The notes: generated from the letters alone by a model not told the origin. A stretch of DNA of 64,000 nucleotides from Candidatus Nitrosocosmicus oleophilus (GCF_000802205.1 NZ_CP012850.1:2294001-2358000); one strand, 5' to 3'. Positions 38,525 to 57,111 are shown, counted from the first letter of the stretch. Made by a program: numbers and translations.

Positions 38525-39361
38525 TTAATATTTCAAATCAAGTTTTTTTACATGCTCTAATCCAAAATTAACAGCAGGAAAGTAATTTTTGTTTGAGATT
38601 GTGGGTTCAAAACTAATCTTGCCCTTATATGAAATTTTTTTTAAGGTTTTTACAATTATATCAAAATCAATATGGCCAAATCCTGGCATTTTCCTGTTAT
38701 TATCAGCAAAGTGCATATGAGAAAGAATATGCTGTGAATTTAGAATTGTATCCTCAAAAGAATCTTCCTCTATGTTCATATGAAAAGTATCTAGCATGAG
38801 TTCTAAATCATTACATTTTTCGATTAGCGGTGTTGCGTCTAAATAAGTACTACAGTAGGGTGTTGAATATCGATTAAGTGGTTCTACCATCAAAGAGACA
38901 TCTACATCTCTAGCAATTTTTAAAAGCCGGTTCAATAAAGGGACACAACTAGACAACACAGTAGTCTTGTGATTTGGTTTAACGTTCCTATGAGTTACGT
39001 CAAAAGAATAAATTGGATCTGAAAACAAACACAGATTAATTCGATTTCCTCCAAAATAATTACATAATTTAATGCACTTTAGCACATAATCTTCAGAATA
39101 TTTCAGTATTGATTTATCGTTACTTAGAAGACGCCTTTTCCAACCGTTTGAACTCGACCTACCCCACATCCCAGTAACTCCTATTACTTTTATGTCAAAT
39201 GAATTTAGAAGATCCTTAAGATGATCCCAATCCATATCATCTGGTTCTCCATACACTTCCACTTCAGTCAAACCTAATCGGCAAAGGTTTTCTAAGGTTT
39301 CTATCTCGTTTTTTTGTATATTCAGAAACGAAGATAAAGTAATAGAGTATGAAAATGTCAT
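38525..39361 (-). CDS. Sugar phosphate isomerase/epimerase, TIM barrel (EboE-like role possible)
   Basis: Xylose-isomerase-like TIM barrel of 278 residues. The four metal ligands of the epimerase subgroup are all visible: E160 (LMVEPLNRY), D191 (LMLDTFHMN), H217 (SHMHFADNN) and E252 (ISFEP). The GFGHIDF block is also conserved. Members act on ketoses, inosose or similar polyols. It lies 64 bases downstream of an alkaline-phosphatase-type hydrolase on the same strand; that pairing is the EboE/EboF arrangement of the bacterial ebo cluster. EboE proteins are usually longer (about 400), so the link is inference. Confidence 0.88.
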   Translation of the reverse strand: MTFSYSITLSSFLNIQKNEIETLENLCRLGLTEVEVYGEPDDMDWDHLKDLLNSFDIKVIGVTGMWGRSSSNGWKRRLLSNDKSILKYSEDYVLKCIKLCNYFGGNRINLCLFSDPIYSFDVTHRNVKPNHKTTVLSSCVPLLNRLLKIARDVDVSLMVEPLNRYSTPYCSTYLDATPLIEKCNDLELMLDTFHMNIEEDSFEDTILNSQHILSHMHFADNNRKMPGFGHIDFDIIVKTLKKISYKGKISFEPTISNKNYFPAVNFGLEHVKKLDLKY

Positions 39362-39425
39362 TTTATTGTTGATCTAACTAACGAAATTTTTTTCGCATAA
39401 AATGCTATCTAATTCTTGTATCCTC

Positions 39426-40880
39426 TTAAACAAAGTTCTTTCTTACTATTTCAAAAATATCCAAACAATTGATTACAGGATGTCCGTCGAAAATTTCTTT
39501 ATCAATATGTTCTATTTTCTTGTTTGATACGAATGCAGACAAGCCCTCCCCTGATTCAATGCTGAATGGTCTTCCATGGGATCCTCTGATCAGGCTAGTA
39601 TCTGTCGAGATGCATTTTCTTTTAGGGTCGATGAATAAATCTAGAGGGTCATATCCTGGTTTTCTGTGAATATCAACTGTTTTAGTAAAGCTAGGTGCTT
39701 TTTCAATTTCATTATTTTTAGTATCATCAGGATTTGAGTTCTTGATTTTCTGGTCATCATACCACCAGTAGTAACTAAACCATTTGTCCTTTTCCGCTAT
39801 GGCAATGAGTTCTCCACTCCTTGCATGATCTATGTGAAGGTTTTGTTTTTCTTTCTCATCACAAACCATATGGATTCCGTTGATATCTTCTATCGCAATT
39901 TTAATCTTCTGTTTATCTATCTTGTTACTTGTATTCATGTAAACATGTGCTACTTGATGATCTACCATTGCAAAGGCTTCACTATATTCATAGTCGATAT
40001 ATTCTTTTCCGTTAATGGTTCTTACTTGGAGCAATCCCTTCTCTCTTAAAATTCTATTTATTGGTATCGCATTTTTTACATCATTAAATCCATACTCAGA
40101 AATCAAGAGAAAATGAGTTTCATCAAAAATACCTGCTTCCTTAACCTTTTCTATAATATTACCGACGCAATTATCGATTTGCTTTAAATCATCTGTTACT
40201 TGGGGGCTAGAATAACCAAATTTCTGAGCAGTATAATCAAGTTGTGGAAAGTAAGCGTACAACAAGTTTGGGCGATGGTTTTTGATGGTGTATTGAACAG
40301 ATTTCGTTATCCATTCAGAGGACTTTATAGAAGAAAACGGACCCCAATAATTCATCAGATTAAATCCGCCAATTTCTTTGCTTATTTCCTCATAATAGTT
40401 TACTGGTTTAGAATAACACCACATGTCCATCTGTCCGTTTTCTAAATGGATAGGACGAGGGGTAACAACGTAGTCATTATTTGAATACATAGAGTTTTGC
40501 CAGAATAAAAGGGCTGTCTTGAGGACATCATTTTTGGCTTTTATAGTATCCCAAATTTTTTCAGCCTGAACAAGATTAGTAGATTGCTCCCAGAATAAGG
40601 TCTGTAAGTTTTCTCTATCAAAAAAACCATTTGAAATAATTCCATGTTCCTTTGGATATTTTCCAGTCAAAATACTTGCCTGGACGGAACATGTTACAGA
40701 CGGAAACACAGGCTTCATATATCCATATTCACCGTCGTTCCCAAGCAAACTTGAGATATTAGGATAATCCTGAGATGCCGAAGAAATATGTGAAACCCCT
40801 AATCCTACAATATCTAAAATAACAAAATATTTTGAACTTTTATTATTGTTGTTTGTCAAACAAGTGAATATATTGGTCAT
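39426..40880 (-). CDS. Alkaline-phosphatase-superfamily hydrolase, nucleotide pyrophosphatase type (EboF-like)
   Basis: 484-residue metal-dependent phosphodiesterase/phosphatase fold. D23 (ILDIVGLG) and the nucleophile T63 (FPSVTCSVQASILTG) form the first metal site; LDYTAQKFG, SEYGFND and DHQVAHVY supply further ligands. GKYPKEHGIISNGFFDR is typical of nucleotide pyrophosphatases. It has no signal peptide, so it is probably cytoplasmic. It is directly upstream of a TIM-barrel isomerase. In bacteria this family member accompanies EboE in the ebo cluster. Substrate unknown; a polar insert near 385-400 is specific to this protein. Confidence 0.88.
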   Translation of the reverse strand: MTNIFTCLTNNNNKSSKYFVILDIVGLGVSHISSASQDYPNISSLLGNDGEYGYMKPVFPSVTCSVQASILTGKYPKEHGIISNGFFDRENLQTLFWEQSTNLVQAEKIWDTIKAKNDVLKTALLFWQNSMYSNNDYVVTPRPIHLENGQMDMWCYSKPVNYYEEISKEIGGFNLMNYWGPFSSIKSSEWITKSVQYTIKNHRPNLLYAYFPQLDYTAQKFGYSSPQVTDDLKQIDNCVGNIIEKVKEAGIFDETHFLLISEYGFNDVKNAIPINRILREKGLLQVRTINGKEYIDYEYSEAFAMVDHQVAHVYMNTSNKIDKQKIKIAIEDINGIHMVCDEKEKQNLHIDHARSGELIAIAEKDKWFSYYWWYDDQKIKNSNPDDTKNNEIEKAPSFTKTVDIHRKPGYDPLDLFIDPKRKCISTDTSLIRGSHGRPFSIESGEGLSAFVSNKKIEHIDKEIFDGHPVINCLDIFEIVRKNFV

Positions 40881-41116
40881 AGTATTTATTAATCAATAGA
40901 AAATTCTGCTTTATCCGTGGATAAAATTAACTAGCATACATTTGGCCTGTCTAGTAGAGCTTCCTCGTTTTCATCTTTTTGAAAATACCAAATAACTCAC
41001 CCTAATAGAATCTACTTTAATTCCATGTTTTGTACAATAGAAAAAATAAATGATTAACTAAAATAGATGTACCCGATTGCAAATCTCAAATTAGTTAGTT
41101 ATTGATTAAGTGTGTA

Positions 41117-41263
41117 TTAATCAATCTTTTGTATTTTTAATAGTATCTCGCATTTGGGACAACTCAAGCCCAAGAACTTGAATAACAAATCCCCATCTTC
41201 GAATTCCTCCGTTATGAGTTGACTTAAATTTATTGCTTCCTTACAAAATGGACATTTTGCCAT
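41117..41263 (-). CDS. Zinc-ribbon mini-protein
   Basis: A 48-residue frame from ATG at 41263. Two CPxC knuckles, C4-P-F-C7 and C35-P-K-C38, are separated by 27 residues, enough for one zinc ribbon. The remaining residues are acidic in the middle (ITEEFEDGDLL) and lysine-rich at the end. Free-standing zinc ribbons of this size are common in archaea and usually bind nucleic acid or protein partners. It lies between the phosphatase gene and a small membrane protein, with its own AT-rich upstream region. Below the usual length cut-off, so easily missed. Confidence 0.75.
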   Translation of the reverse strand: MAKCPFCKEAINLSQLITEEFEDGDLLFKFLGLSCPKCEILLKIQKID

Positions 41264-41745
41264 ATGTATGAGATATCCAAAGTTCTTATTTAAAACTAGT
41301 GAATGCTATGTTATTTATGGTAAAGCCAACCTTTCTTGCTTAAAACTATAAATTCAATCGGTTTTTTGATGATATTCTTACATCCGATAATCAAGAAATT
41401 GTTTATATTATAGTTAGGTGCACCTAATATTGCATCTAATAAAGCATTGTTGTCAAGCAAAAACAACATCCAAATCCCTTGTTTGATGTCCAAATGTCTT
41501 ACCTTCAAACCAATACACGTCTGGAAAATCTGGAAGTTGTTGAAAGGGTTGGCATCACATTATACCACGATTGGCAGTATGGCGGAAAAAAGGATGGCAT
41601 TTTAAATGTCACCCAATTTTCAACTTTCAATAAAAGTCTTTGGATTTATTCATGTTTAGCAATTGTTAATACTAGAAACACTTGTCAAAATTAAATAAAG
41701 AAAAATAGGATCATGACTTAATTACTTTTCTTAACATATACTATT
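41264..41745. other. Intergenic gap with two weak opposed frames
   Basis: 482 bases. A 65-codon minus frame (41311-41508) and a 71-codon plus frame (41479-41694, TTG start) partly face each other. Neither shows a motif, a signal or a good start, and I leave both out as genes. Confidence 0.45.
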
Positions 41746-42114
41746 ATGAAAGGCTACCAGAAGCTAACCATTATCACAGCTATTTTAGGACTCATTATTC
41801 CCTTTATTGGGCTCTTTTTGTATTTTTTGATAAATAGCTTTGTTGGAATCCCGATTTTGGCACTTTTTGTTGGTTGGGCATTGCTAATAGCAATAGCTAT
41901 AATAGGAATAAACGTAGGAGCCATTATTGCTGCATTTAAAATTAAAAATAATAAAATTGTTGGAGGCATCTTAATCGCGTGTGGAGTAATGCTTTTCGCT
42001 CTGATTCAATGGTTTGCAGTGCCTGCATTGGCATTATTTGTTATTGCGGGGATATTGGCCCTTAGAGAAAAGAACACTCTTAGCAATCTTAAAAGTGACA
42101 ATTTAGCACCTTAG
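41746..42114 (+). CDS. Small membrane protein with four helices
   Basis: 122 residues with about four hydrophobic segments: 8-30, 35-63, 72-90 and 92-107. The ends are polar, and the C-terminus (REKNTLSNLKSDNLAP) is probably cytoplasmic. Composition is that of a DUF-type inner membrane protein. No motif that would name a function. It stands alone between AT-rich gaps, with a TATA-like TATACTAT just before the ATG. Confidence 0.65.
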   Translation: MKGYQKLTIITAILGLIIPFIGLFLYFLINSFVGIPILALFVGWALLIAIAIIGINVGAIIAAFKIKNNKIVGGILIACGVMLFALIQWFAVPALALFVIAGILALREKNTLSNLKSDNLAP

Positions 42115-42286
42115 CAAGATAGTCTACTAATTAGTATTTTGCAAACTTTCGCCTTTATTTTTTGGAAATATGCAAGAAAAAAGTATGTTCCACAAGATTC
42201 AACTAAGCCAGGATAAAGATAAAAAATAATATCTAGGTTTAGGACTAAACTCCTCTCAATTCACTTCAAAAAAACTCTGATCTTTT

Positions 42287-42829
42287 TTACTCTTCACTCA
42301 TTTCCTTAGCAGCATCTTCACATTCAGACATATCTCCAATACCTGATGATCCCTTCTTTTCGCTGCAATTGTTGATATTGTAATAATGTATGCCATTATT
42401 ATCAGTTAGATATTCGCCTCTTTGTTGAGAATCTGATATGGTATCATTGTTTGTAGCTTCACTGCTAACATTAGCCTTTATAGTATCATTAGAGGAATCC
42501 AAATCACTTTGATCTTTCACTACTCCTGTACTTGTATTAGTTGATGACAAAGAATTTAGTAGTGGAACACTTTGCATAGGTACATTAGTAACATTCTCGC
42601 TACTACTAGAATTTTCATTTAACCTGGAATTTTCATTTGGAATGATAATTGTAGTTACAGGATTACTTTCAAAACTGCTTACTGAAGAATTTGAAAGTGT
42701 CGAATTCTTTTCAGGTACAAAAGAAGATGCACTACTGGATTGAATATCTGGTGACCAAATAATGATAAAAGCTGATGCTACGAAGCAACCTAAACTTACG
42801 AGTAAAGCCAAATTAATAGATTTATTCAT
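42287..42829 (-). CDS. Secreted or anchored S/N-rich protein with C-terminal two-cysteine motif
   Basis: 180 residues. An N-terminal hydrophobic segment at 7-25 (LALLVSLGCFVASAFIIIW) is followed by about 100 residues dominated by S, N, T and V, likely disordered and perhaps glycosylated. The C-terminus is compact: GIHYYNINNCSEKKG and DMSECEDAAKEMSEE contain the only two cysteines after the anchor, which may form a disulfide. No known domain. It fits the general pattern of exported proteins here. Confidence 0.65.
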   Translation of the reverse strand: MNKSINLALLVSLGCFVASAFIIIWSPDIQSSSASSFVPEKNSTLSNSSVSSFESNPVTTIIIPNENSRLNENSSSSENVTNVPMQSVPLLNSLSSTNTSTGVVKDQSDLDSSNDTIKANVSSEATNNDTISDSQQRGEYLTDNNGIHYYNINNCSEKKGSSGIGDMSECEDAAKEMSEE

Positions 42830-42970
42830 GTCATATACACATCATGAAAACCCATTTAAAAAAATTTGTAATACAAACCGTCTAGTTTGCATGTATATGA
42901 CTTACCTTGTTAATTCATATTTTTGGATTAATAAAATAGTGAAAATTATCTCCTAATCTAAGGGACTTAA

Positions 42971-43939
42971 TTATGTCATGCTTATCCATCTACCGAGTAC
43001 TATGCACGGAATTGTAAGTAATGCTACAATTGACCCCGGCAGCAGGCCAACTTCGCCTGCTATAAATGCTGAATCTAGCATTATGAGGAGAATTAGCATG
43101 TATTTGACCAAGAATCTCATCATAAACTCACCCCGGCTGCGATCCATTTTGGAGGCTTTACCGAAAAGTAAATTGATCAAGAACAAGAATAATAAAATAA
43201 AAATTAGAAAATCCAATTTTAATGGGACCAAAATAATTGCTAAAGATAAAGTGATAAGCAAAAAGATAAGATACGTAATTTGGATTCTTTGAATATTTAG
43301 GGCATTTTTGACTATTAAGAATTCTCTGGTTGTTTCGTTTTTGCTAAGAGAGGTAAGGACAAAGACATGAAAATATACAGCAAAGGATGCCAAGGCAAGT
43401 AATAGAGAAGAGTTAAAACCTGTATTAGACATCAAAAGACTTCCGTTTTCAACTGTGCTATTGCTTGACAAATCAAAAACAAAGCTTGCACCATACAGAA
43501 CGTTTAATGCTCGTATTCCCGCCATCAAATATGGTCTGAAAAAGCCATTCTTGATTCGATAGTTATATGATAATATGCCTATAATAAGTAACATCGAGAT
43601 TCCAACAGCCGAAAGATTTACAAATGATGCTAGGATTATTCCCAGGCTAAACATGAGGATGGCAAGTAATAGTGCATTTGTTTTTCTTATTTTGCCTGAG
43701 GGTAAAGGTCTAGTTGGTCGCTCAAGTCTATCTACCCTGATATCAAATAGATCATTTGAGACCATACCACCAAGGTATAAAAATATGGATGAAAAAATCA
43801 GGATCACGAGATCTGAAATATTGTAACCTATTGATGGATTTATGCTAAGGGCAACTGCTAAAAAACCTACGATAATATCTGGTGGAATTGTAAAAACATT
43901 AGAAATACGGAAGAGTTTTAGATAAGGATTTTGTAACAT
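42971..43939 (-). CDS. UbiA-family prenyltransferase, EboC-like
   Basis: Polytopic intramembrane prenyltransferase fold, 322 residues, with about eight to nine helices. The first aspartate motif NDxxDxxxD is at 62-70 (NDLFDIRVD), followed by RLERPTRPLPSGKI. The second motif is not the normal DxxxD: the region reads LSKNETTREF, with glutamates instead. The wording around both sites resembles EboC proteins more than geranylgeranylglyceryl-phosphate geranylgeranyltransferase, the main alternative in an archaeon. A TIM-barrel isomerase gene lies 34 bases upstream on the same strand, supporting the ebo-like reading. Confidence 0.85.
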   Translation of the reverse strand: MLQNPYLKLFRISNVFTIPPDIIVGFLAVALSINPSIGYNISDLVILIFSSIFLYLGGMVSNDLFDIRVDRLERPTRPLPSGKIRKTNALLLAILMFSLGIILASFVNLSAVGISMLLIIGILSYNYRIKNGFFRPYLMAGIRALNVLYGASFVFDLSSNSTVENGSLLMSNTGFNSSLLLALASFAVYFHVFVLTSLSKNETTREFLIVKNALNIQRIQITYLIFLLITLSLAIILVPLKLDFLIFILLFLFLINLLFGKASKMDRSRGEFMMRFLVKYMLILLIMLDSAFIAGEVGLLPGSIVALLTIPCIVLGRWISMT

Positions 43940-43973
43940 GATAATTCAGTCAAATATTTGGAGTAACATGTGT

Positions 43974-44792
43974 CTAAATTGAATTAATGTAGTTCATTGA
44001 TTCTAAAGCAGCACCAATGGGGTTTTCCTTATAAGGATATAGTTCAACAGTAACATAACCATCATAGCCTATTTCGTCCATTTTTGCAAAAGCGGTTCTA
44101 AAATCAATCGATCCATGTCCAGGGATCAGATGGAAATGCTTTCGGTTTTTTATATCGGCCATATGAAAATGTTCAATAAAGTTTTGCAACTTGAGAATCA
44201 AAGCGCTAGGATCCTCATTAACACAGTAAAAATGACCAATATCAAAATTTAATTTCAAATATTCAGAATCAAATTCCTTCATAAAATCCATAAATTCAGT
44301 TGAAGATTCTAGCAACAATTCTGGTTCTGGTTCAATCAAAACTTTTATTTGTTTTTTCTCTGCTTGTGGGAGGACAGACCTTATACCGCTCGCAAAAAGT
44401 TCCAAATACTTGTTTCTGCTTGTAGACATTTCAATCGGTCCTCCTGGTTCCACTGAAATATTTTTTGCGCCAAGTTTTTCAGCTAGATTAATGCAATCTA
44501 TTGTATGTTTTATGCGGAGCTCGCGAGCATCTTTATCATTTTCTATCCAAGAAGGATGATAGGTATCGCCTAATCCAAATAAAGTAAAAGCATTTAGGTT
44601 TGAAATTTGTAACTTATTGCGACTTAATGAATTCTTAATCTCATTAATTTTATTTTCATTCAAATTTGGCGGGTAGGCATGGGGCACGTCACACATTATT
44701 TCGACACCTTGATAGCCTATTTTGGAGATTTCCTCTATCGATCGGGTTAGTGAATAATTGGTAAAGGCATTAGTACTAAAGGCAAACTTCAC
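43974..44792 (-). CDS. Sugar phosphate isomerase/epimerase, TIM barrel (second copy type)
   Basis: 272-residue xylose-isomerase-like barrel. Metal ligands E154 (VLIEPEPEL), D184 (LNFDIGHFYC), H210 (EHFHMADI) and E250 (VTVELYPY) are present, with LIPGHGSIDF. It is only distantly similar to the protein at 38525, so it is not a recent duplicate. It precedes the EboC-like gene by 34 bases and is probably co-translated with it. Possible substrates are polyols or keto sugars; none can be picked from sequence. Confidence 0.9.
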   Translation of the reverse strand: MKFAFSTNAFTNYSLTRSIEEISKIGYQGVEIMCDVPHAYPPNLNENKINEIKNSLSRNKLQISNLNAFTLFGLGDTYHPSWIENDKDARELRIKHTIDCINLAEKLGAKNISVEPGGPIEMSTSRNKYLELFASGIRSVLPQAEKKQIKVLIEPEPELLLESSTEFMDFMKEFDSEYLKLNFDIGHFYCVNEDPSALILKLQNFIEHFHMADIKNRKHFHLIPGHGSIDFRTAFAKMDEIGYDGYVTVELYPYKENPIGAALESMNYINSI

Positions 44793-44974
44793 AAAAAAAA
44801 TTATTTTCTTTGGGTTAAATAGTTATGTAGTAATTAAGATAAAGTAATCGTTGATTAATTTAACTGCAATTACTATGCCTAGAGTAGATTTATCTACGCT
44901 TAAAAAATATTGAAACCCTAATCTCTGCAAGTCAATGGAAAATAGAATCTAACTAAAAAAAATTGTAAAAAATA

Positions 44975-46195
44975 TCATGATACCACGATGCTATGAGGAT
45001 CAAGAAATTGATCATTATTACTTCCTTGGGATCCCCAAGTCGACAAGAATTCACCATTGCTATCAAACTTTTGAACTCTGTAATTCAGCTGCTCAACCAC
45101 GTAAACGTTCCCATCAGAATCTACGGCAACATCATGCGGACTTGCCAATTGCCCATTCCCTGGTCCTTTAGATCCCCATGCTGATAGAAAGTTACCTTCG
45201 GTATCAAACTTTTGAATCCGACTATTGCCAGCATCTACTACGTAAATATTATCATTTTTATCTATATCCAACCCAGCTGGCTTCTTGAATTGACCTTCAT
45301 TTTCACCAGTAATACCCCATTTGGAGATAAAGTTACCTTCGCTATCAAACTTTTGAACGTTATTGTTATCAGTATCTGTGACGTATATATTGTCCAAAGA
45401 ATCTATGGCAACGCCTTCGGGAGCATTGAATTGACCATCACCAGTACCCATTGAACCCCATTTAAACAGAAAGTTACCTTCGCTATCAAACTTTTGAATA
45501 TTAAAGTTTGCCATGTCACTTACGTAGGAGTTACCTACAGAATCCAATTTTATAGTATGAGGATGCATGAATTGACCATCACCAGTACCCATTGAACCCC
45601 ATTTAAACAGAAAGTTACCTTCGCTATCAAACTTTTGAACGTTATTGTTATCCATATCAACAACATAAACATTCCCATCTTTGTCTACATCTACTCCATG
45701 AGGTACTCCGAACTGACCGTCTGCCTTACCTTTTGCACCCCACTTTGAGATAAAGTCACCTTGAGTATCAAATTTCTGGATTCTAATATTGCTGTAATCT
45801 ACTACATATACATCGCCAGCACCGCCACCACTACCACTGGTAGTAGTAGGAGTAGGAGTAGGTGTATCAAGGTCATTGCCACCAATTCCAGTCTCGGTTT
45901 CCTGATTCGCAGGTGAGCCTTCATCTTGATTATCCTTGGTTTCAGATTTTTCTATCGGGTTCTGAAACGTTGGTTTTATTATTTCGTTAACCTGAGAATC
46001 TACCTCTTCATCAATATCACCAAGTTCTGAAAGTGAATTCTGCATGTTTGTTGGCATATCAGAATATGGATTATTAAAGGATAAAGAAGGTAGTTGAAAA
46101 TCCGTACTTTGAGCATAAATATCATCATAATCAGATAAGATCAAACTTCCACCTACTGCAGGAATAAGAAGAACCAATAAAACCAGACTATTCAC
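44975..46195 (-). CDS. Secreted NHL-repeat beta-propeller protein
   Basis: 406 residues. A short hydrophobic N-terminus (about 2-20) acts as signal or anchor, then a disordered acidic linker to about 125 ending in a PTPTPT/SGSGGG tract. From about 128 there are six repeats of about 47 residues with the NHL pattern (GNVYVVDxxNNxVQKFDSEG, then FLxKWGxxGxxxGQFxxPxGV), enough for a six-bladed propeller. Two neighbouring blades are nearly identical at DNA level (see repeat). It is probably exposed at the cell surface and binds protein or sugar; enzymatic lyase activity has been shown for some relatives but no catalytic site is evident. Confidence 0.88.
   Translation of the reverse strand: MNSLVLLVLLIPAVGGSLILSDYDDIYAQSTDFQLPSLSFNNPYSDMPTNMQNSLSELGDIDEEVDSQVNEIIKPTFQNPIEKSETKDNQDEGSPANQETETGIGGNDLDTPTPTPTTTSGSGGGAGDVYVVDYSNIRIQKFDTQGDFISKWGAKGKADGQFGVPHGVDVDKDGNVYVVDMDNNNVQKFDSEGNFLFKWGSMGTGDGQFMHPHTIKLDSVGNSYVSDMANFNIQKFDSEGNFLFKWGSMGTGDGQFNAPEGVAIDSLDNIYVTDTDNNNVQKFDSEGNFISKWGITGENEGQFKKPAGLDIDKNDNIYVVDAGNSRIQKFDTEGNFLSAWGSKGPGNGQLASPHDVAVDSDGNVYVVEQLNYRVQKFDSNGEFLSTWGSQGSNNDQFLDPHSIVVS
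45428..45498 (-). repeat. Near-perfect intragenic repeat, copy 1 (NHL blades)
   Basis: This 71-base segment is identical to 45569-45639, 141 bases away, which is one blade of 47 codons. It indicates a recent tandem duplication or gene conversion between neighbouring blades. Confidence 0.85.
45569..45639 (-). repeat. Near-perfect intragenic repeat, copy 2 (NHL blades)
   Basis: Second copy of the 71-base identical segment in the propeller gene; see the copy at 45428. Confidence 0.85.
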
Positions 46196-46664
46196 AAGAT
46201 TTTATTGTTAAATTTATTATTATGTGATTGGGAATAAAAGACAATTATTATCCATATGACAAATTTTTGATGAAATGGATTATCTGAAGGTTTTAGGACA
46301 ATTTACAATAACATTTAGCTGTCATTGATTTGATGACTATGATCTTGCCGTATTTTCCCATTTTTTTACGATTCGGGTTTTCGAATATCTATTCAAACTT
46401 GGTTAAGCTCTAGGTGGCAATAAGATGAAACTTACACCGCACCGAAGAATGATGATTGTTTTGTCGTGGAGGATATGGAAATCTACTAAAGGATTAAATT
46501 TTGATATATAAATGTAAATTTTTTAACCTATCTTATGAACAGAATTAAAAAGCAATAGTCTAGAGTTATCAACAAAGTTTGGTTTAAGAAACAAAACTTG
46601 ATCAATAGGCATTATTCATGTAGCTTTATCAACAGAGATTGAGAAATTGGTAAAAAAATCAAAA
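46196..46664. other. Intergenic gap
   Basis: 469 bases. A GC-richer patch near 46400-46480 holds a 28-codon basic frame (ATG near 46424) that I do not call. TATATAAATG near 46504 is TATA-like. No repeat or RNA recognised. Confidence 0.45.
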
Positions 46665-48110: not shown

Positions 48111-48284
48111 ATGAAAAAGGATAGACACAAAACCGAAATCGGTACAGTAGAAAGTGGATTAAAATCTTCACAACTAAGGCCACTTTTTAATAGACAGGAA
48201 TCAAATTCAGCCCAAGGTAAAAAGCGCGAACTACAAACAGCCGATAGAATATTACTATTAATGCAAGAAGAGGAAAAATACTAG
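48111..48284 (+). CDS. Small charged protein, 57 residues
   Basis: ATG at 48111, stop at 48284. The product is basic at the start (MKKDRHKTE), rich in Q, S, K and E, and ends in an amphipathic helix (LQTADRILLLMQEEEKY). A TATA-like ATATAATAATAA lies about 50 bases upstream. Its composition differs from the surrounding AT-rich gap, which favours coding, but no family is recognised. Confidence 0.45.
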   Translation: MKKDRHKTEIGTVESGLKSSQLRPLFNRQESNSAQGKKRELQTADRILLLMQEEEKY

Positions 48285-48602: not shown

Positions 48603-49775
48603 CTACTTGTCATCGTTGTTTTCTCTATTGTCATATTCCTCGTCCCTGTTATTTAGTATCAGTAGATTAATAATTAGTGGATTTAGTCGATGAGAAGTTG
48701 ATAATCTTTTATCTATTTCTTGATGGATCTGTCTTGCCGCATTCATCGAATAAGTTATTTGATAAACTATATGATTCAGATTTGCTATCGCATCTGAGCA
48801 GGTCTTTTCCAATTCCTGTTTTTGACGATCTAACATCTCGACTTCCTTTTTTAGATTGTTTAAAATGGCTAAGCTCTGTTCAATTGCCACATGAATATTT
48901 TTTAAGCTCCTTAATTTTTCTATATACCGTGTCCAGAATTCATTCTTACTGACGGTGTCATTTCTTATAGGACTGTTACCATCCATATTTAATGAAAGGT
49001 CATCGACAAAACCGGTATTTTTAAGAGACGTTACCAAATTATAAATATTAATAATATCCTCGTTTGTTACACCGCTATGATTAAGATGGACTATCTGAAG
49101 GTTCAAAATCCCCTGTAATTGCAAATACATTTTATATTCTGGAACTTCTTCTTGCAGTTTCTCTTTTTCTGTCTTGAGACTTTTTATTATACTTTCAAAT
49201 CCGAGTTTATTGTCGTATTGTTTTTCTACAATGTTGAGAAATTGAGGAAGTGCTTCATTATCAGGCAAACTGTTAGCTCTTGAGATTTCTACTAATCTGC
49301 TCAATAACCGTTTGAGTTCTTTAAGTCCAAGCCCTCTTTTCTGTAATTCCTCAAAAGTATTCGTGCTTTGTATATAATAGCTTCGTTTTTCTTCGAGAAA
49401 TTCAATTTCTTTCAATAGTTTATCCCTTGCGGGTCTGTTCATTTCGAGCATGCTCTGGATTATCTGTATCTCTTCCCTTACTGATTTGAGCTCTTTATAA
49501 TCATTGATTATATCGAGAACATTATAGTCATAACCATTAAAATCATTAATAGCCTTTGCAAAAGTACTAAATTCCTCTCTGATATCTAACCCATATTCGT
49601 CTCTCAATTCTCGAGTTAGGGACTTGTACCATGAATAATATTTCATGATACTTCGCTCTCTCTTTATTGCTTTATCTAAATCAGAGTCAATAGCATTCTT
49701 TAGCCCCTTTGCCCTTTCTATATCTCTCAAAAGTAAAGTATGGGCTTGTTGCAGACTTTGAAATTTCATCTTCAT
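48603..49775 (-). CDS. Coiled-coil protein, probably the 3' part of a frame-disrupted gene
   Basis: 390 residues, nearly all predicted coiled coil with long heptad-like stretches (for example EEIQIIQSMLEMNRPARDKL, EFLEEKRSYYIQ, LAILNNLKKEVEMLDRQKQE) and a very acidic, asparagine-rich C-terminus. It has no membrane segment. The ATG overlaps the stop of the upstream gene by four bases (ATGA). The same frame is open for another ~23 codons upstream (KKQILFVSKIDGYLEQ) before its ATG, which suggests it once continued from the upstream gene. Proteins with an N-terminal small domain and a long coiled coil in one chain are common in this group of archaea. Confidence 0.75.
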   Translation of the reverse strand: MKMKFQSLQQAHTLLLRDIERAKGLKNAIDSDLDKAIKRERSIMKYYSWYKSLTRELRDEYGLDIREEFSTFAKAINDFNGYDYNVLDIINDYKELKSVREEIQIIQSMLEMNRPARDKLLKEIEFLEEKRSYYIQSTNTFEELQKRGLGLKELKRLLSRLVEISRANSLPDNEALPQFLNIVEKQYDNKLGFESIIKSLKTEKEKLQEEVPEYKMYLQLQGILNLQIVHLNHSGVTNEDIINIYNLVTSLKNTGFVDDLSLNMDGNSPIRNDTVSKNEFWTRYIEKLRSLKNIHVAIEQSLAILNNLKKEVEMLDRQKQELEKTCSDAIANLNHIVYQITYSMNAARQIHQEIDKRLSTSHRLNPLIINLLILNNRDEEYDNRENNDDK

Positions 49776-50248
49776 TTGCTCAAGATAACCGTCAATTTTA
49801 GAAACAAAAAGTATTTGTTTTTTGTATTTTTTACGAAACTATTTTTAGGTAAATCAATCGCATCCTCATTAATTGGATCTCTAGCTCTGGCATCAATGGT
49901 ATTAGAAAGGAAGTCGGAAGAGCCAAATTCTAACAAGTCATTAATCCATCTTATTATTATAGAGGGATCGATACCGTGAATCTTGCATTGATTATACAGA
50001 CTACCTACAAACATATAAAAACTGTTTCTGCGAGTTGGGGGAGCCCTGCCACGACTTTTTCCAAGTTTTCCATCTGCGATCCCTCCAGTTTCATCGAGGT
50101 GTGAATATTTAATTGGAGTCTTATCATCTGGACTGAGGGAGACATCTATTTCCGATTCATCCGTAATTCCAAACTTGGATAAAATTTTGATAAATCTAAA
50201 ACCTTGAGCACATTGCTCAACGGTCAAGCCTGATTTGTTGACAAGCAC
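49772..50248 (-). CDS. Conserved small helical domain, probably the 5' part of the same disrupted gene
   Basis: 158 residues from GTG. The core SGLTVEQCAQGFRFIKILSK plus FGI, then SFYMFVGSLYNQCKIHGIDP and IIRWINDLLEF, forms a helical domain I associate with a multicopy archaeal family that normally runs on into a coiled coil. The last ~20 residues (KNTKNKYFLFLKLTVILSK) look out of frame: adding one base in either T6 run at 49818-49823 or 49827-49832 joins the frame of the downstream coiled-coil gene. Upstream codons also read as protein (DQIAVPNIDSLREFS) but have no start codon; an ATG at 50309 is in another frame. Confidence 0.6.
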   Translation of the reverse strand: MLVNKSGLTVEQCAQGFRFIKILSKFGITDESEIDVSLSPDDKTPIKYSHLDETGGIADGKLGKSRGRAPPTRRNSFYMFVGSLYNQCKIHGIDPSIIIRWINDLLEFGSSDFLSNTIDARARDPINEDAIDLPKNSFVKNTKNKYFLFLKLTVILSK

Positions 50249-50309
50249 CGAAAATTCTCTTAAAGAATCAATGTTTGGAACTGCGATTTGGTCCTTCCAA
50301 CTCTATCAT

Positions 50310-50979
50310 ATTAAACACGGTACCCTTTGAGATTTGATTCTCTACGGATATTGTTTCATATGAATTTCCATTAGTTAATCCTCTATTACCGATTTTCCTG
50401 CCCCTTTCAAATCTACCTTGCGAGCGCTAAACTCAAATTTATACTATTCAAAGATATGTTCATTTTGTTCATATTTTTGTTCAACTCGTTCAAAAAATAT
50501 GATTAGATGAAGAAATCTTATCTGAGGAGTATTATAGGTGGAAAATCACCTCCGTGAGATTAGTAGAGGCGAACGGGTAGGTCGTTTTTGGCTCCACTAT
50601 CTATTAATATGCTGTTAGATTCTCTAGGGACGATATAGAAGCGGCTTTCTAATGACATTTTTGTCTTTCAGGGTTTGCTTTTTGTATCTAAGTGGATCAT
50701 ACTCACTGTACCTGTCACCCTGTTGACGTAGACCAAATAAGACTAACCCGGTAATTCGATGATGTGGTTTAAATCAAAAAGATTAAAGCTGTTAAATATA
50801 GTCAGATAAAAATAATCTGAGATCAACGACTATGAGATGATTAAATTGACGAGAGCTGGGATAAAATCCTACTCTTTATCCTGTTTATTTTAGCTGAAAC
50901 ATATGGAAATTAATTATAGTAAGATTATTTCAGAATCTGATTAAACAATTCACTTATACAATACTAGGAACCTATACAC
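50310..50979. other. Gap with possible decayed coding sequence
   Basis: 670 bases. Between about 50500 and 50775 base composition is richer in GC and several short frames read like protein on the minus strand (a 50-codon frame 50624-50773 without start, and a 32-codon ATG frame 50560-50658). The plus strand has AGGTG-GAAAAT-CACCT, a small hairpin at about 50536-50551. This looks like remnants of a lost gene or a structured RNA. The rest is AT-rich and empty. Confidence 0.4.
50560..50658 (-). pseudogene. Possible coding remnant, 32 codons
   Basis: ATG at 50658 to TAA at 50560. The peptide (MSLESRFYIVPRESNSILID, then SGAKNDLPVRLY) has a natural composition, and an overlapping frame upstream (50624-50773, GLRQQGDRYSEYDPLRY and on) is also protein-like but lacks a start. 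Two protein-like frames in one place suggest a frame-shifted remnant. No family recognised. Confidence 0.25.
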
Positions 50980-51237
50980 ATGAATAAAAAAATTCAATTG
51001 TCAATCTTGTCAATCTTTATTGCAGCAGCTTTGGTAGGTTCAGCGGTCACATTTGGAGATAATATGGCATTTGCAACAAAGAAGAGTAGCAACGATTTAG
51101 CACAATTTTTAGGCCAATCATCAGAAACAGGCCAATTTTCAGAATGTGCAACAGACAACAATACACTCGCTTCATGTAACAATGTAGGCTTATCCATTAA
51201 CGCACAAGACGGTAACAACGCCGCAGGTCAACAATAA
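50980..51237 (+). CDS. Small secreted N/Q-rich protein, curlin-like family
   Basis: 85 residues. A signal peptide spans about 6-32 (LSILSIFIAAALVGSAVTFG, then DNMAFA as cut site), the same MAFA/DAFA ending as in the protein at 34389. The mature part is Q, S, N and G-rich (LAQFLGQSSETGQFSECATD) with C56 and C66, and ends SINAQDGNNAAGQQ. The N-x-A-x-x-Q pattern relates it to the repeats at 51631. Likely an exported filament or matrix component. ATG start about 40 bases after a TATA-like TTATACAATA. Confidence 0.75.
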   Translation: MNKKIQLSILSIFIAAALVGSAVTFGDNMAFATKKSSNDLAQFLGQSSETGQFSECATDNNTLASCNNVGLSINAQDGNNAAGQQ

Positions 51238-51630
51238 ACACTATTCAAAATAGTATTGCCACATCCTTTTTTTTAAACAAGATTTTTATATCGAATTAAA
51301 ATCCTCAAAAATAGAAATTCAAGCCCTGCATATGGAATTTTGAAAATTAAATTAATTAATGTTTATCTGGTAAATCATACTAACCGCCTATTGTAGTTGT
51401 CTATTGCAAACTCTCCAGCTTGACAAATAACTAGTGAAAAGTTACAATTTTTCCTTTTGATTACTCACTTTAGACTTTGGGGGCTAATTGGCTATTATTT
51501 TTTAGATATATAAAGAAATTCTAAAACAATACCATAACAAATTAATGAATATTTTAAACAGAAATTATTACTCTGAAAATCTTAACAAATTGTTATATCA
51601 TATTTTCATAATATAGAATTTAAGACTAAA
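51238..51630. other. Intergenic gap, AT-rich
   Basis: 393 bases between two secreted repeat-protein genes of the same family and strand. Contains poly-T tracts after 51237 that may end transcription and TATA-like TATATAAAG near 51510. No gene seen. Confidence 0.45.
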
Positions 51631-52149
51631 ATGTTAAGGTCAAACCATACAAAAAAAACTGCACTATTAGTTGTAGCAGTATTAGCGACAGTAATGATTA
51701 TGGGTCCATCAATATCAGGCATAAATAGCGTACTAGCAAAGCAAAAGTACAATGATTGGGAAGATTGTAGGGATGATCATAGTAAAAACTGGTGCAAGAA
51801 TTACTTTAGACACCACAATGATAACGATAATGGTAATGGTAACAGAGCATCACAAGCAATAGGTCAATCACAATCCTCCAGCCAGAATTCTCAATGTGTT
51901 TCTGGTGGTAGTACTAGCGGATCATGTAACAACTTTAATTTCCAAAACCAAAAGAACAGTGGAAACAATGCACTAGCACAAGATGGGAATGGAAAGGGTG
52001 GTAACAAAGCTAGTCAAGGAATAGGTCAATCACAGTCCTCCAGTCAAAATAGCCAAGTAGTATCAGGTGGAGACACAATAGGTTCTGGTAACAACTTTAA
52101 TTTCCAAAACCAAGTTAATACCGGCAATAATGCCTTAGCACAAAGATAA
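51631..52149 (+). CDS. Secreted curlin-like repeat protein
   Basis: 172 residues. Signal peptide about 9-36 (ALLVVAVLATVMIMGPSISG, ending VLAKQ). Residues 40-60 form a small cysteine-containing segment (DCRDDHSKNWCKNYF). Then come two 47-residue units, each of the form ASQxIGQSQSSSQNSQ, a GG turn, NNFNFQNQ, NxGNNALAQ. The first unit carries two cysteines (QCVSGG, GSCNN), replaced by V and G in the second. The unit resembles the S-x5-Q-x-G-x2-N-x-A-x3-Q pattern of bacterial curli subunits, though the spacing is not identical. Likely an extracellular beta-solenoid or amyloid-forming matrix protein. Confidence 0.8.
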   Translation: MLRSNHTKKTALLVVAVLATVMIMGPSISGINSVLAKQKYNDWEDCRDDHSKNWCKNYFRHHNDNDNGNGNRASQAIGQSQSSSQNSQCVSGGSTSGSCNNFNFQNQKNSGNNALAQDGNGKGGNKASQGIGQSQSSSQNSQVVSGGDTIGSGNNFNFQNQVNTGNNALAQR

Positions 52150-52689
52150 CCTATCTTATTTTCTTTTTTACAAATACTGTTTGTATCTCGATAACAAAAT
52201 ATAATGTTTCGGCTAATTGCATTAATACACCAAATCAACTAATTAAAAATATTATGGGATAAATCTTACCAAATTTGATAATGAGGTAAGAAGTTCTAAA
52301 TCAATTTACTATGTAAAAAAAATGAAACTTCATTCTTTTGTTTAAAAATCTTATACATCAAATTTTGAATCGATCTAAATTTGTAATTCAGTAAGGGTAT
52401 TTGATTCTTTTCAAGTTAAATGATTTTGCAATAAAATTACTAAATTTTGCTAGCCAAAAGATTTATAAAAATATGAAATTGAGATTTAATGAATTTGATT
52501 TCTTCCCAAGTCGCTTTCTTCTTCGCAAATCACATGTATTCAAATCAGATCACAGCAGCCGATAGGATAATTTTATATCTGCCAATTACTTGGAGGTTCT
52601 ATTTACTTTTTTGTTCACAAAAGGGATCAAGTTATCGAATAAACTAAGGCGGCTTAAAAAAATTCTTTGCTAGGCCATATGCGAGAATT

Positions 52690-52803
52690 ATGAATACCGG
52701 TTTGCAAGGTTTGAAAATTACTCTTGATAAACAAGTTCAAACTAATTTAGTTTTAGAGCGGTTTCAAGACATGATCGAGCAAGTGTATGAACAGTTTGCA
52801 TAA
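52690..52803 (+). CDS. Possible small protein, 37 residues
   Basis: ATG at 52690, stop at 52803. Sequence is polar and helix-prone (ITLDKQVQTNLVLERFQDMI then EQVYEQFA), resembling the start of ribbon-helix-helix-like proteins. Reading in frame upstream is also open but has no ATG. Composition stands out from the surrounding DNA. Confidence 0.35.
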   Translation: MNTGLQGLKITLDKQVQTNLVLERFQDMIEQVYEQFA

Positions 52804-53339
52804 ATGGTTCTCGTATTAAGGTTTCAAATACAATGGATATAGCAAAGCAAGTCCAATGAAATTAACCTCACTGTTTGTTTGTAACGAATAAGAACCCCTA
52901 TCTTTTGATAATTCATCGTTAATTGTGGGCGAAAATCATTAATTGTATTATTGGTCTTATTTTGTATATTCTTATCATCTTAGGTAAGAAAAGAGGCATA
53001 CATATTATTTCAATTCACCCCAAGTCAGTTTTATAAATATAAACAATAATTTTGAAATCCTCGAAATAGTTAATATTAGTATTAGATATGCAATACCATC
53101 ATCTGATGTTTCTTGGGAATAACTAATTAAATATATTAGGGCTGTATAGAAATATTTTTGCAATTCAATCTATTCATTTGCAATATCCGAACTCAAGCTA
53201 ATGAATTTTGATTCTCAGTTAACGCAATAAAATAATTAGTCATATTTTAGAGCCGAAACTTTCCTTTCTATCATTTATTTATCATTATAGTGTTTTTTTA
53301 TATTGATTTAAATATATAACCTTATATGGATAAAATAAC

Positions 53340-53432
53340 ATGATACCTAAAACGACTGCTACGTTCAGTTTTAGCACTTTTGTAATAATATCATATTTAT
53401 TCACCGTCGTCGCCCATACCTCTACATATTGA
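53340..53432 (+). CDS. Possible truncated signal-peptide ORF, 30 residues
   Basis: ATG at 53340 follows TTAAATATATAACC by about 25 bases, a good leaderless arrangement. The product is a typical signal peptide (TFVIISYLFTVVAHTS) and ends right after it. It may be the start of a secreted-protein gene whose body has been lost, or a bona fide small membrane peptide. Confidence 0.3.
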   Translation: MIPKTTATFSFSTFVIISYLFTVVAHTSTY

Positions 53433-53494
53433 TTTCAGCGAATTAATTTGTGTTCATCGATCGGCCAAAGTAAAAGTCGATCATTATTAAATGC

Positions 53495-53620
53495 TTAATT
53501 AAAACTAATTAGGTCCTCCACTACACAAGAGAACTCATGCTTTCCTGTTGAACCAGATTCAGTCACAATGATTGGTACAGAGGGTCCATCCACTGCAGCT
53601 CCCGATTCAAACTCAACGTC
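53495..53620 (-). pseudogene. Possible C-terminal remnant of a surface protein
   Basis: A minus-strand frame without start reads DVEFESGAAVDGPSVPIIVT, then ESGSTGKHEF and a stop. The alternating pattern with VxxTESGxTGxF resembles Ig-like or S-layer repeats of exported archaeal proteins. A second protein-like frame continues upstream to about 53735 in another phase. I infer a decayed gene end; support is sequence feel only. Confidence 0.25.
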
Positions 53621-53894
53621 TTAAAGTTTTTGATCGTAAAATGGCGGTTGTCTTTGATTATATTCCAGGTATTTGATGATCTGTAATTCCCTACAAATCC
53701 TAATATAACATTTCAATCTTGGTAATACTTGATCCATTTTATAATTTCTCATAAATCTGTTCCCATTAAAAGAAAGATCTATCACACTTCTGCTCAAAAA
53801 GGATATTTAAATATTCATATTAACAATAGTCAAATTAATTCAAAACATAAGCCTGCTCAAAAAATGCGATTCATTCGTTTATTTATTTAGTAAT

Positions 53895-54917
53895 CTATGC
53901 ACTAATGAGCGATGAAGATGAGTATGCTCTCACAAAACTTTCTAACCCATCTTGGAGATTTATTTTTGGATTATACGCTAATAAGTTTCGCGCCCTTGAT
54001 ATATCTGAAAGACTTTGTAGAATATCTCCAGCACGAGCATCAGTGAACGTAGGATTAATTTCATCCTTACCGACGGTGTTCCTTGCAATTTGAACTAGAT
54101 CTAGAATTGATGTAGGGATTCCGGTTCCAACATTAAAAATTTCACCCACAGCGTTGTTAGATTCCATTGATAGCATATTGGCATAAACCACGTCTTGGAT
54201 ATTAACAAAATCCCTTGTCTGGGATCCATCTCCGTAAATAATAGGGGATTGATTGTTTATCAACCTGTCGATAAAAATTGTTATTACTCCACTATACTCA
54301 TTATTGCTTTGTCTAGGACCATATACATTGAAATAACGTAAGGAAACGCATTTTAAACCATAAGTTTTCCAATAACTATGAAGGTAGTTTTCGACAGATA
54401 ACTTTGAAGCGCCATAAGGAGAAGTCGGTTTGCACGCTAAATCCTCATTTAATACGTCATTAGACAAATCGCCATAGACTGCCGAGGATGAAGCAAAAAT
54501 AATCTTTTTTACACCAGAATTCAGACAGAAATCGATTACCTTCATTGTGGATCGTACGTTTGAATAAAATACTTTTTCAGGATTTCGAACTGATTCCGTG
54601 ACACTCGCTATTGCAGCTTCATGAAATACAACATCTATTTCCTCAATATCTTTCATAATGTTATGAATTTGGGAAATATCTCCAGGCAGAACATGCAATC
54701 TTGGGTTTAATAGATTATTTTTCAAATTATATAATTTGCCGCTAGAAAAATCATCAATGACAAAAGTTTCAAAACCTCTTTTTAGTAATTCATCTACAAT
54801 GTGGCTTCCGATGAATCCGGCGCCCCCAGTTACAAGAACTCGTTGAACAGATCTCAAAGCTATAATTAGCCAATTCGAATTATAAAAACGTTCCTTAATA
54901 GAGTAAAAACTGTTCAA
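53895..54917 (-). CDS. NAD-dependent sugar-nucleotide epimerase/dehydratase (GalE/WbpP-like)
   Basis: Extended short-chain dehydrogenase acting on UDP-sugars. Cofactor loop TGGAGFIGSH at about 31-40, then DDFSSGK, the catalytic SSAVYGD and YGASK pair, and RYFNVYGPRQ. UDP-glucose 4-epimerase or UDP-GlcNAc 4-epimerase/dehydratase are the likely activities. The first 20 residues (MNSFYSIKERFYNSNWLIIA) precede the usual N-terminus; a TTG at codon 21 (54857) gives a standard start. It opens the surface-glycan region with glycosyltransferases a few kb away. Confidence 0.92.
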   Translation of the reverse strand: MNSFYSIKERFYNSNWLIIALRSVQRVLVTGGAGFIGSHIVDELLKRGFETFVIDDFSSGKLYNLKNNLLNPRLHVLPGDISQIHNIMKDIEEIDVVFHEAAIASVTESVRNPEKVFYSNVRSTMKVIDFCLNSGVKKIIFASSSAVYGDLSNDVLNEDLACKPTSPYGASKLSVENYLHSYWKTYGLKCVSLRYFNVYGPRQSNNEYSGVITIFIDRLINNQSPIIYGDGSQTRDFVNIQDVVYANMLSMESNNAVGEIFNVGTGIPTSILDLVQIARNTVGKDEINPTFTDARAGDILQSLSDISRARNLLAYNPKINLQDGLESFVRAYSSSSLISA

Positions 54918-55161
54918 ATGTTTTGTTGTTTTTTCATTTTTGTTTTATGATTCAACATAATTTTATTGATAATGATAATAACTTATAATTCAAGAAAAAT
55001 TGATTAAATCTTTTTTGTAACAGACTAGTAAAACTATCCCTAGGTATTTGATTTTTATTCTTGTATTAAAGTACGTTTCTGATATTTGAATTTGAGCAAA
55101 AAAACAGATTCTGGGGTCGTCTATCACAAAGATAATACGCAGTTTTTAGACGTAAAAGAGA

Positions 55162-55971
55162 TCATGGCACCCATGTAAATTTCTCTGATTGTCTATAAAA
55201 TTCAAATGCATTAAGGAAAGTAACTTTTTCGATATCCGTGGGAGAACAGCCATTTTTTCGCATTTCTTTCGCGGTCAAAGGCACACTCAATGGGTCAGAC
55301 ACACCCCAGTCTGCTGCACTATTAACCATTATTTTGTCACTTCCATACTCTTTTACAATATTAATCACGCGATCAGGTGAAAGCTTCGTAACTGGATAGA
55401 CTGAGAGTCCGGCCCAGGCACCCAGATCTAACGTCTTTTTTATTGTCTCCTCAGTATTATGATCAATAAGGATCTTATTGTAATCATAGTTACCGTTCTC
55501 AAAGATCTTTTCCATCCTTCTCATCCCCTCCGTTTTATTTTGATGTGGTAAGTGAATCATTGCCAATAAATTATCCTTTTGACAAATTTCCAATTGCTTA
55601 ACAAAAATCTCCTCCTCAAGAACATTAATTAAGTTATAACCAATTTCACCAAGTGCAACAACCCGTTCTCTTTTTAAGAATTTATTATCTATCATTGCAT
55701 TTAATGCGTCAATAGCTAAAGGTCTCTCTACTGATTCTTTAGGGTTGACAGAAATGCATGTAAAATGCTCTATGCCATGCTCTTTAGCTCTTTTTGTTTC
55801 AAAAGAAATCATGTGCTCCCAATAATCAATAAATGTGCCCACGTGAGTACGCGGGGCCCCTAGCCAAAATGAAGGCTGTACTATGACTTCGATACCGGCG
55901 ATTGACATCCTCTCGTAATCATCTGTCGTCCTTGAATACATATGAATATGTGGATCGAAAAATCGGGTCAT
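55162..55971 (-). CDS. TatD-family metal-dependent hydrolase, EboB-like
   Basis: 269-residue amidohydrolase-type TIM barrel. The N-terminal H8-x-H10 (FFDPHIHMYSRT), GEIGYN, MIHLPHQNKT, LIDHNTEE and NSAADWGVSD supply the expected metal ligands. It differs from nuclease TatD by the long MSIAGIEVIVQPSFWLGAPR block, which is like the EboB proteins of the bacterial ebo cluster as I remember them. It is divergent from a zinc alcohol dehydrogenase, with 69 bases between the starts. The deoxyribonuclease role of TatD should not be assumed. Confidence 0.85.
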   Translation of the reverse strand: MTRFFDPHIHMYSRTTDDYERMSIAGIEVIVQPSFWLGAPRTHVGTFIDYWEHMISFETKRAKEHGIEHFTCISVNPKESVERPLAIDALNAMIDNKFLKRERVVALGEIGYNLINVLEEEIFVKQLEICQKDNLLAMIHLPHQNKTEGMRRMEKIFENGNYDYNKILIDHNTEETIKKTLDLGAWAGLSVYPVTKLSPDRVINIVKEYGSDKIMVNSAADWGVSDPLSVPLTAKEMRKNGCSPTDIEKVTFLNAFEFYRQSEKFTWVP

Positions 55972-56040
55972 AATTCATCTATTTACAAATTAAATATATA
56001 TACACTAACGACTGAAATATCTTTAAAAATTGAGACTTTG

Positions 56041-57111
56041 ATGAAAGCTGCCTTCTTCTATGGACCTAATGATATAAGGATTAAGAATATAGACACTGAA
56101 ATCAGAACTGATGGGGAAAGCAAGTTAAGGGTATTGGCCTGCTCGGTCTGCAGCTATGATGTAAGAACATTTAGAAACGGGAGCTTTAAAGTAACTCCTC
56201 CAGTTATCCTTGGTCACGAAATTTGTGCTCAGACTATAACAGATTATAAGGGGAAAAACTTTAGCATCAAATCAGGCACTAGAGTTTCAATTTATCCTGT
56301 TATTCCTTGTTTTGAATGTTGGTATTGTAACAATAATAAGTATAATTTATGCTCTAATCTAAAAGAAATAGGATCCACTGTTAACGGAGGCTTTGCGGAA
56401 TTCATAAGGATTCCTAATCGGTTGTTTGAAATTGGTGGTATTGTTCCCGTATCAGACAAAATATCAAATGAGGAAGCAGCCCTCATTGAGCCCTTGGCCT
56501 GTTGTATAAATGGAATAAATCAAATCAGGAGAGGGGACTTTCAATCTATTGTAATTATAGGTGATGGACCCATTGGCCTTATGCAATTGATTTTATTAAG
56601 AAGATTATTTCCAGAAACAAACGTAACTGTGATAGGTAAAATAAAGCATAGATTAGAATCAGCTCGCAAATTAGGGGCACATAGGACCCTTGAAGTTACT
56701 GATAATGATTTCAATCCAATAATAGATGCCTTAAAGAAGTCTGACGAAGATCGTGCTCCAAATTTGATTTTTATTTCAAACAATAGCTCTACATCGATTG
56801 ATCTAGCACTCAAGATAATTACCAAAAACGGAAAATTGGTTATTTTTTCAGGAATAAAGAATCAACATAATAATTCAAATACTGGGACGACAAGATTAGA
56901 TCCTAATTTTATACATTACAATCAGATTACAATTTTTGGTAGTTTCAGTTCAAATCCTGAAAATCTAATAGAGGCAATGGATTTAGTTGATTCAGGAGAA
57001 ATCAAATTATCTGATTTTATAACTGGTACATACCATCTGAAGGATCTTACTAATGCTTTCGCATTCTCGGAATCATTTAAAGGCTTAAAATCGGTGATCA
57101 ATAAATTTTAG
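56041..57111 (+). CDS. Zinc-dependent alcohol (polyol) dehydrogenase
   Basis: Medium-chain dehydrogenase, 356 residues. Catalytic zinc ligands C37 (ACSVCSYD) and the H59-E60 pair (ILGHEI); the structural zinc lobe has C90, C93, C96 and C104 (CFECWYCNNNKYNLC). The NAD loop is IGDGPIGLMQL. Relatives include sorbitol and threonine dehydrogenases. An upstream TTG-type start at 55942 would overlap the TatD-like gene, so I use the ATG at 56041, which begins the conserved MKAAFFYGPND. Divergent partner of the EboB-like gene, perhaps sharing a control region. Confidence 0.9.
   Translation: MKAAFFYGPNDIRIKNIDTEIRTDGESKLRVLACSVCSYDVRTFRNGSFKVTPPVILGHEICAQTITDYKGKNFSIKSGTRVSIYPVIPCFECWYCNNNKYNLCSNLKEIGSTVNGGFAEFIRIPNRLFEIGGIVPVSDKISNEEAALIEPLACCINGINQIRRGDFQSIVIIGDGPIGLMQLILLRRLFPETNVTVIGKIKHRLESARKLGAHRTLEVTDNDFNPIIDALKKSDEDRAPNLIFISNNSSTSIDLALKIITKNGKLVIFSGIKNQHNNSNTGTTRLDPNFIHYNQITIFGSFSSNPENLIEAMDLVDSGEIKLSDFITGTYHLKDLTNAFAFSESFKGLKSVINKF

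Follow-up and report, generated by a model that had tools for sequence, protein, structure and literature searches.

Gene content of the locus

The window analysed here is a stretch of 64,000 nucleotides from Candidatus Nitrosocosmicus oleophilus (Nitrososphaerales), whose replicon is a single contig representing a complete archaeal genome of 3.43 Mb. Over 18 kb of it lie six genes (Table 1), five of which had been likened in an earlier note to the bacterial ebo cluster for metabolite traffic. These five open reading frames are intact and all on the minus strand, and the folds ascribed to them are borne out by Pfam: AP_endonuc_2 for both TIM barrels (38525 and 43974), Phosphodiest for 39426, UbiA for 42971 and TatD_DNase for 55162. 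Two tight gene pairs had also been described; their intergenic gaps are 64 bp (38525/39426) and 34 bp (42971/43974), but the label EboE does not fit the isomerase at 38525 (see below). The sixth gene, for a dehydrogenase, was listed as an open reading frame beginning at 55942; its likely start is Met34. No Rfam elements were found in the region of the set.

Table 1. Members of the gene set, in positions of the window.
Gene	Position	Strand	Description
TIM2	38525..39361	-	IolO / ketose-3-epimerase-like TIM barrel of the xylose-isomerase type; not EboE
EboF	39426..40880	-	alkaline-phosphatase-superfamily protein; EboF-type altered metal site
EboC-like	42971..43939	-	UbiA-family membrane prenyltransferase; motif 2 = (S/A)(R/K)xE
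TIM1	43974..44792	-	short xylose-isomerase-type TIM barrel beside eboC; GTG start
EboB	55162..55971	-	TatD-like metal-dependent hydrolase without C-terminal (N/S)(S/T)xxRG tail
Dehydrogenase	56041..57111	+	medium-chain Zn/NAD(P) polyol dehydrogenase, divergent from eboB; probable sixth member

Several neighbouring genes deserve mention in their own right. Short tandem repeats (NDNG, NEQTSSDD) make up most of a protein at 57194-58447, whose relatives nearby in the genus are only partial. A secreted-looking NHL-repeat protein (44975-46195) beside TIM1 is conserved in several members of the genus. Its best NCBIfam profile is ScyF; a link to scytonemin by this route was ruled out, as several other NHL-repeat proteins of the genome score similarly. 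In the same genus, a small protein with an Lrp/AsnC ligand-binding domain is encoded between the thioredoxin reductase gene and TIM2 (L100, 8299-8529, and equivalents). The gene at 5152-6132 encodes the ergothioneine methyltransferase EgtD, scoring above its own cut-off; in several relatives (L084, L085, L086, L091, L092) egtD lies directly beside the ebo operon, with egtB adjoining. EgtB and EgtD of ammonia-oxidising archaea have been reported previously (PMC7554672).

Relationship to Ebo protein families

The TatD-type protein at 55162 shares 38-43% identity with EboB of annotated bacterial ebo clusters (blastp; up to 46% by tblastn). The motif HxHMxSRTTDDY is common to 20 of 21 aligned sequences; the exception, haloarchaeal L110, is truncated at its start and reads SRSSNDY instead, but keeps the core of the motif. 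In the tree (all trees here were built by a quick method and have long branches), a generic TatD protein that this genome encodes at another locus falls far outside as an outgroup. By identity, motif and tree the protein at 55162 is an EboB and no generic TatD nuclease. Its relatives on bacterial plasmids are annotated as TatD family hydrolases, and several overlap or adjoin genes for EboA-domain proteins. A scan of GTDB genomes returned many more loci, of which the best 80 were kept; among those with enough flank, many contain other ebo genes. TatD-like proteins of other Thermoproteota (L211-L231) were set aside, the EboB motif being missing where readable.

Bacterial EboB proteins often end in a short tail, (N/S)(S/T)xxRG. 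Among the EboB C-termini of L106-L193, every one of the 62 bacterial loci that have EboA shows it, against one of the 26 loci lacking EboA, as counted with a relaxed pattern (a strict first form missed many true tails) and with the last three assigned by eye. The tail may serve to dock EboA; its association with EboA is not independent evidence for this, because the EboA-type EboBs form one clade. In three loci of PVC-group bacteria that lack EboA (L121, L126, L158), a conserved gene of 260-270 aa stands before eboB, with a UVR motif in L126; a TIM-barrel identity was ruled out for the gene upstream of PVC-type EboB (261 aa). One relative carries a second copy of eboB and the dehydrogenase gene (L102, G074:C6, 7445-9528), and the same locus encodes at 4486-6051 a homologue of L078:5443-7191, itself weakly similar to the ScyD/ScyE family.

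For the UbiA protein at 42971, the best NCBIfam profile is EboC (NF035940), matched over the full length at 131.5 bits, against 57.7-72.7 bits for models of archaeal lipid synthases. The curated cut-off of 250 bits is reached neither here nor by other archaeal copies (150.7 and 201.9 bits). UbiA proteins of Nitrososphaeria form one clade (97%) that lies among EboC/SCO3242 proteins and away from DGGGP and heme O synthases; the split of the EboC side from these synthases has an SH-aLRT of 90, with the long-branch UbiA paralogue L003 on the EboC side. Rows L115 and L117 of this tree are labelled bacterial and are in fact thaumarchaeal. Profile and tree thus agree with the EboC-like character suggested earlier, and the protein is not best matched by archaeal GGGP geranylgeranyltransferase. 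Its AlphaFold model has the UbiA fold, with DGGGP synthase as the nearest solved structure.

The first aspartate motif, NDxxDxxxD, is intact in this protein. The second, DxxxD, is absent, as had been noticed, and the position reads SKNE. Where canonical UbiA proteins have motif 2, nearly all of the EboC proteins compared, from bacteria and archaea alike, carry (S/A)(R/K)xE or something close to it, with Glu202 invariant across an alignment of 15 sequences; the missing motif is thus a trait of the EboC family. A bacterial EboC nevertheless farnesylates aromatic acceptors in vitro with FPP and Mg2+; bacterial Ubi-297 and two homologues are the only members for which prenyl transfer is known (PMC9235831).

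The third protein with an Ebo counterpart, at 39426, belongs to the Phosphodiest family, is 34-39% identical to annotated phosphodiesterases of ebo clusters (EboF) and shares with bacterial EboF the signature PAVTC, LDYxxQ, SEYG, DHxRSG and GSHG, as expected of the EboF relative proposed before. Aligned with autotaxin, LDYxxQ takes the place of DFSGH and SEYG that of GDHG, and these two motifs set EboF apart from nucleotide pyrophosphatases. Thr63, Asp215, Gln219, Tyr263 and His435 are invariant in an alignment of nine sequences. EboF thus retains the nucleophile, and its metal ligands are altered. A structure search with a model of moderate quality returned the general phosphodiesterase fold only.

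Neither TIM barrel is EboE, contrary to the first assignment. Against the EboE profile NF035939 (cut-off 250) TIM1 scores 38.3 bits and TIM2 gives no match, and EboE forms a clade separate from both. TIM2 matches IolO best among NCBIfam profiles (127 bits, far below the equivalog cut-off), and its nearest solved relative is TM_0416. The metal ligands are fully conserved in both proteins: E160, D191, H217 and E252 for TIM2 (16 of 16 sequences), and E154, D184, H210 and E250 for TIM1 (19 of 19). Orthologues of TIM1 are present in all Nitrososphaeria carriers, and Haladaptatus has one too (40% identity). TIM2 is confined to operons of the Nitrososphaeraceae type and one f9 genome (G361); in other f9 carriers and in haloarchaea a second TIM1-like protein takes its place. 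It was not found in G104, where the locus lies at a contig edge. (The handles f1 and f9 are taken as Nitrososphaeraceae and Nitrosopumilaceae, respectively.)

The dehydrogenase is counted in the set because, in most of the archaeal loci, its gene has eboB or eboF as a neighbour. It lies beside eboB in most g1 genomes and in G049, G119, G361 and L118, near eboB in G113, after eboF in G034, G058 and G289, and after TIM2 in L115; in G032, G089, G116 and G107, eboB is flanked instead by PyrD or by a small ORF adjoining PyrD. The best profile of its relatives is IolM (scyllo-inosose 3-dehydrogenase) or threonine dehydrogenase; that of L232 matches IolM best, far below the equivalog cut-off.

Distribution and operon structure

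In a survey of 121 genomes of the order, counted genome by genome, the UbiA protein (present if above 75 bits), TIM1 and EboB occur in exactly the same 18 genomes. EboF is found in these 18 and in one further genome, G095, whose copy begins at the edge of a contig. Each member of the genera f1/g4 and f1/g6 has either all of UbiA, TIM1, EboB and EboF or none. These four genes co-occur all-or-none, and they are contiguous in several relatives: the five genes are adjacent in G049, G069, G089, G063 and G119, and the order in G361 is adh | eboB-TIM1-eboC-eboF-TIM2, where adh denotes the alcohol dehydrogenase that usually lies close to such operons. Such operons are compact, with gaps of 0-90 bp or short overlaps.

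The set had been called dispersed. This holds for the genus of the window; elsewhere the genes form a contiguous operon in several relatives. Within the genus, eboB-TIM1-eboC is kept together in G104 and G113, and eboB lies apart in the other members; in G032 and G116 the set is split in another way. Because these three genes are still together in G104 and G113 and several relatives have one operon, the scatter is secondary. Taken jointly with the homology described above, it is very probable that the ancestral arrangement was one operon, adh | eboB-TIM1-eboC-eboF-TIM2, later broken up in this genus, whose scattered genes need not still be co-regulated.

As the earlier note had remarked, EboA and EboD are not seen. 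The EboA profile NF035938 gave no match over its cut-off in six archaeal carrier genomes (two chance-level matches only), and a custom HMM found no EboA in the archaeal loci. EboD (PF01761, a DHQ-synthase-like cyclase) was found in none of five carriers, and the same search was positive in 11 of 14 control genomes. A single-sequence profile for EboG matched only its Deinococcus original among the surveyed loci, and between the genes of the compact archaeal operons there is no space for EboG. There is no conserved transporter in the set. Inositol-3-phosphate synthase (Ino1, searched by PF07994 only) gave weak, partial matches in some genomes and none in the genome of the window, with no convincing match in the Nitrososphaeria carriers tested.

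The same set is present on four haloarchaeal plasmids, from Haladaptatus (L110), Natronococcus (L234), Halocatena (L235) and Halobaculum (L236). Like the Nitrososphaeria operons, these have the order EboB-TIM1-EboC-TIM plus EboF, with TIM1 40% identical and no EboA or EboE annotated. They differ in that inositol-3-phosphate synthase adjoins EboF in three of the four and that the second TIM barrel is TIM1-like, not IolO-like. Actinobacterial ebo clusters with an SCO3242-family prenyltransferase (L108, L113) also have EboB, EboF and an EboC-type prenyltransferase followed by a short TIM barrel, as in archaea, although this barrel is distant from TIM1 (24% identity). Unlike the Nitrososphaeria carriers tested, they contain EboA, EboE and inositol-3-phosphate synthase; EboD is absent from the stretches seen.

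Classification and possible function

With the six-gene operon ABCDEF of Bacteroidota and Cyanobacteria (PMC5133447, PMC6282210), the archaeal set shares clustered and co-occurring genes for EboB, an EboC-family protein and EboF, and an EboC devoid of the second aspartate motif. Unlike that operon, the archaeal carriers tested yielded no EboA, EboD or EboE; two short TIM barrels and a medium-chain dehydrogenase are present instead, and archaeal EboB has no (N/S)(S/T)xxRG tail. Because its proteins stay below the curated cut-offs for EboC and EboE, the set is classed as a variant related to ebo, not as the bacterial six-gene operon or its equivalogs. The identity and motif of EboB, the EboF signature, the profile, tree position and motif-2 loss of EboC, the co-occurrence and the operons all support this assignment. 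The overall resemblance to ebo is thereby upheld, and the outcomes that the earlier note had named against it did not occur. We are highly confident that the window carries an archaeal ebo variant without EboA, EboD and EboE, comprising EboB, an EboC-like prenyltransferase, EboF, two short TIM-barrel sugar/cyclitol isomerases and a polyol dehydrogenase.

For substrate class, order of steps, product and export role, the following scheme is proposed. A cyclitol or ketose head group would be oxidised and isomerised at a keto carbon by the dehydrogenase and the two isomerases, EboF would remove or exchange a phosphate, and EboC would couple that head group, within the membrane, with a prenyl diphosphate (for archaea presumably the geranylgeranyl form). 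EboB may hydrolyse an intermediate. The prenylated polyol could then act as lipid carrier or export product, with a small metabolite crossing the membrane. Cyclitol or ketose chemistry is supported by inositol-3-phosphate synthase in the haloarchaeal and actinobacterial clusters, by the best matches of the TIM and dehydrogenase proteins to inosose and ketose families, and by the retention of all TIM metal ligands. Together, the synthase and the inosose-type helper enzymes suggest a prenylated cyclitol- or ketose-derived lipid that aids small-molecule export. Several points count against the proposal: neither an EboD (PF01761) nor an Ino1 (PF07994) cyclase was convincingly found in the Nitrososphaeria carriers tested; none of the EboC, TIM and dehydrogenase proteins scores as high as the curated equivalog cut-offs; there is no transporter; the scattered genes of this genus may have lost co-regulation; and the EboC studied in vitro prenylated quinolines, polyols not being named among acceptors in the accessible part of the report (PMC9235831). 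The prenylated-polyol chemistry has roughly an even chance of being correct, and the statement as a whole, from archaeal ebo variant and ancestral operon to carrier or export mechanism, is slightly favoured.

A role in metabolite traffic is extrapolated from the cyanobacterium Nostoc, in which export of the scytonemin monomer, a sunscreen precursor, depends on every ebo gene tested (PMC6282210). Instead, a secreted prenylated (terpenoid) cyclitol or sugar might itself be the end product of a specialised-metabolite pathway (signal, antioxidant or protectant), with no carrier or export role and only an indirect effect in Nostoc. All recognised parts are enzymes, a cyclitol synthase accompanies the haloarchaeal and actinobacterial versions, and indoles that repel nematodes have been linked to the EDB cluster of P. 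fluorescens, which includes a full ebo cluster (PMC6282210, PMC9655573). However, every Nostoc ebo mutant retained finished monomer in the cytoplasm, an effect better explained by a carrier than by an unrelated end product (PMC6282210), and this reading is rather unlikely, if still to be reckoned with.

A catabolic operon for inositol or other polyols, with the UbiA protein incidental, is considerably less probable. TIM2 and the L232 dehydrogenase do match IolO and IolM best, and the Haladaptatus copy is flanked by Gfo/Idh/MocA oxidoreductase genes, but those matches fall far short of equivalog level, EboB, EboC and EboF are invariant, the membrane prenyltransferase is never missing in carriers, and the hosts are presumed ammonia-oxidising autotrophs. 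Chance proximity of unrelated housekeeping genes (DGGGP-type synthase, TatD nuclease, phosphodiesterase, sugar isomerases), for which the size of the families, the 18-kb spread and the structure nearest the UbiA protein might speak, is most improbable, as the all-or-none co-occurrence, the compact operons of other genera and haloarchaea, and the family signatures and trees already contradict it.

The 2016 description of ebo listed hits in bacteria and eustigmatophyte plastids only (PMC5133447), and no report of archaeal ebo under Ebo names was found in literature mostly outside subscription journals. The archaeal ebo variant offers clues to the ebo product. The cluster is widespread, and we know of no description of its product or of the reactions of most of its enzymes. 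With EboA, EboD and EboE missing from the archaeal version, the shared core shrinks to EboB, EboC and EboF plus polyol chemistry, and a particular class of substrate is indicated by inositol-3-phosphate synthase at the place of EboD in haloarchaeal and actinobacterial clusters. Tentatively, two distant archaeal lineages, the ammonia-oxidising Nitrososphaeria and the haloarchaea, may share such a variant, one that makes a prenylated cyclitol-type lipid, with inositol-3-phosphate synthase replacing EboD in haloarchaea and actinobacteria; if so, an inositol-like cyclitol would be the ebo head group across the whole system. As the haloarchaeal copies sit in a genetically workable lineage, the product could be sought there by gene deletion and lipidomics.
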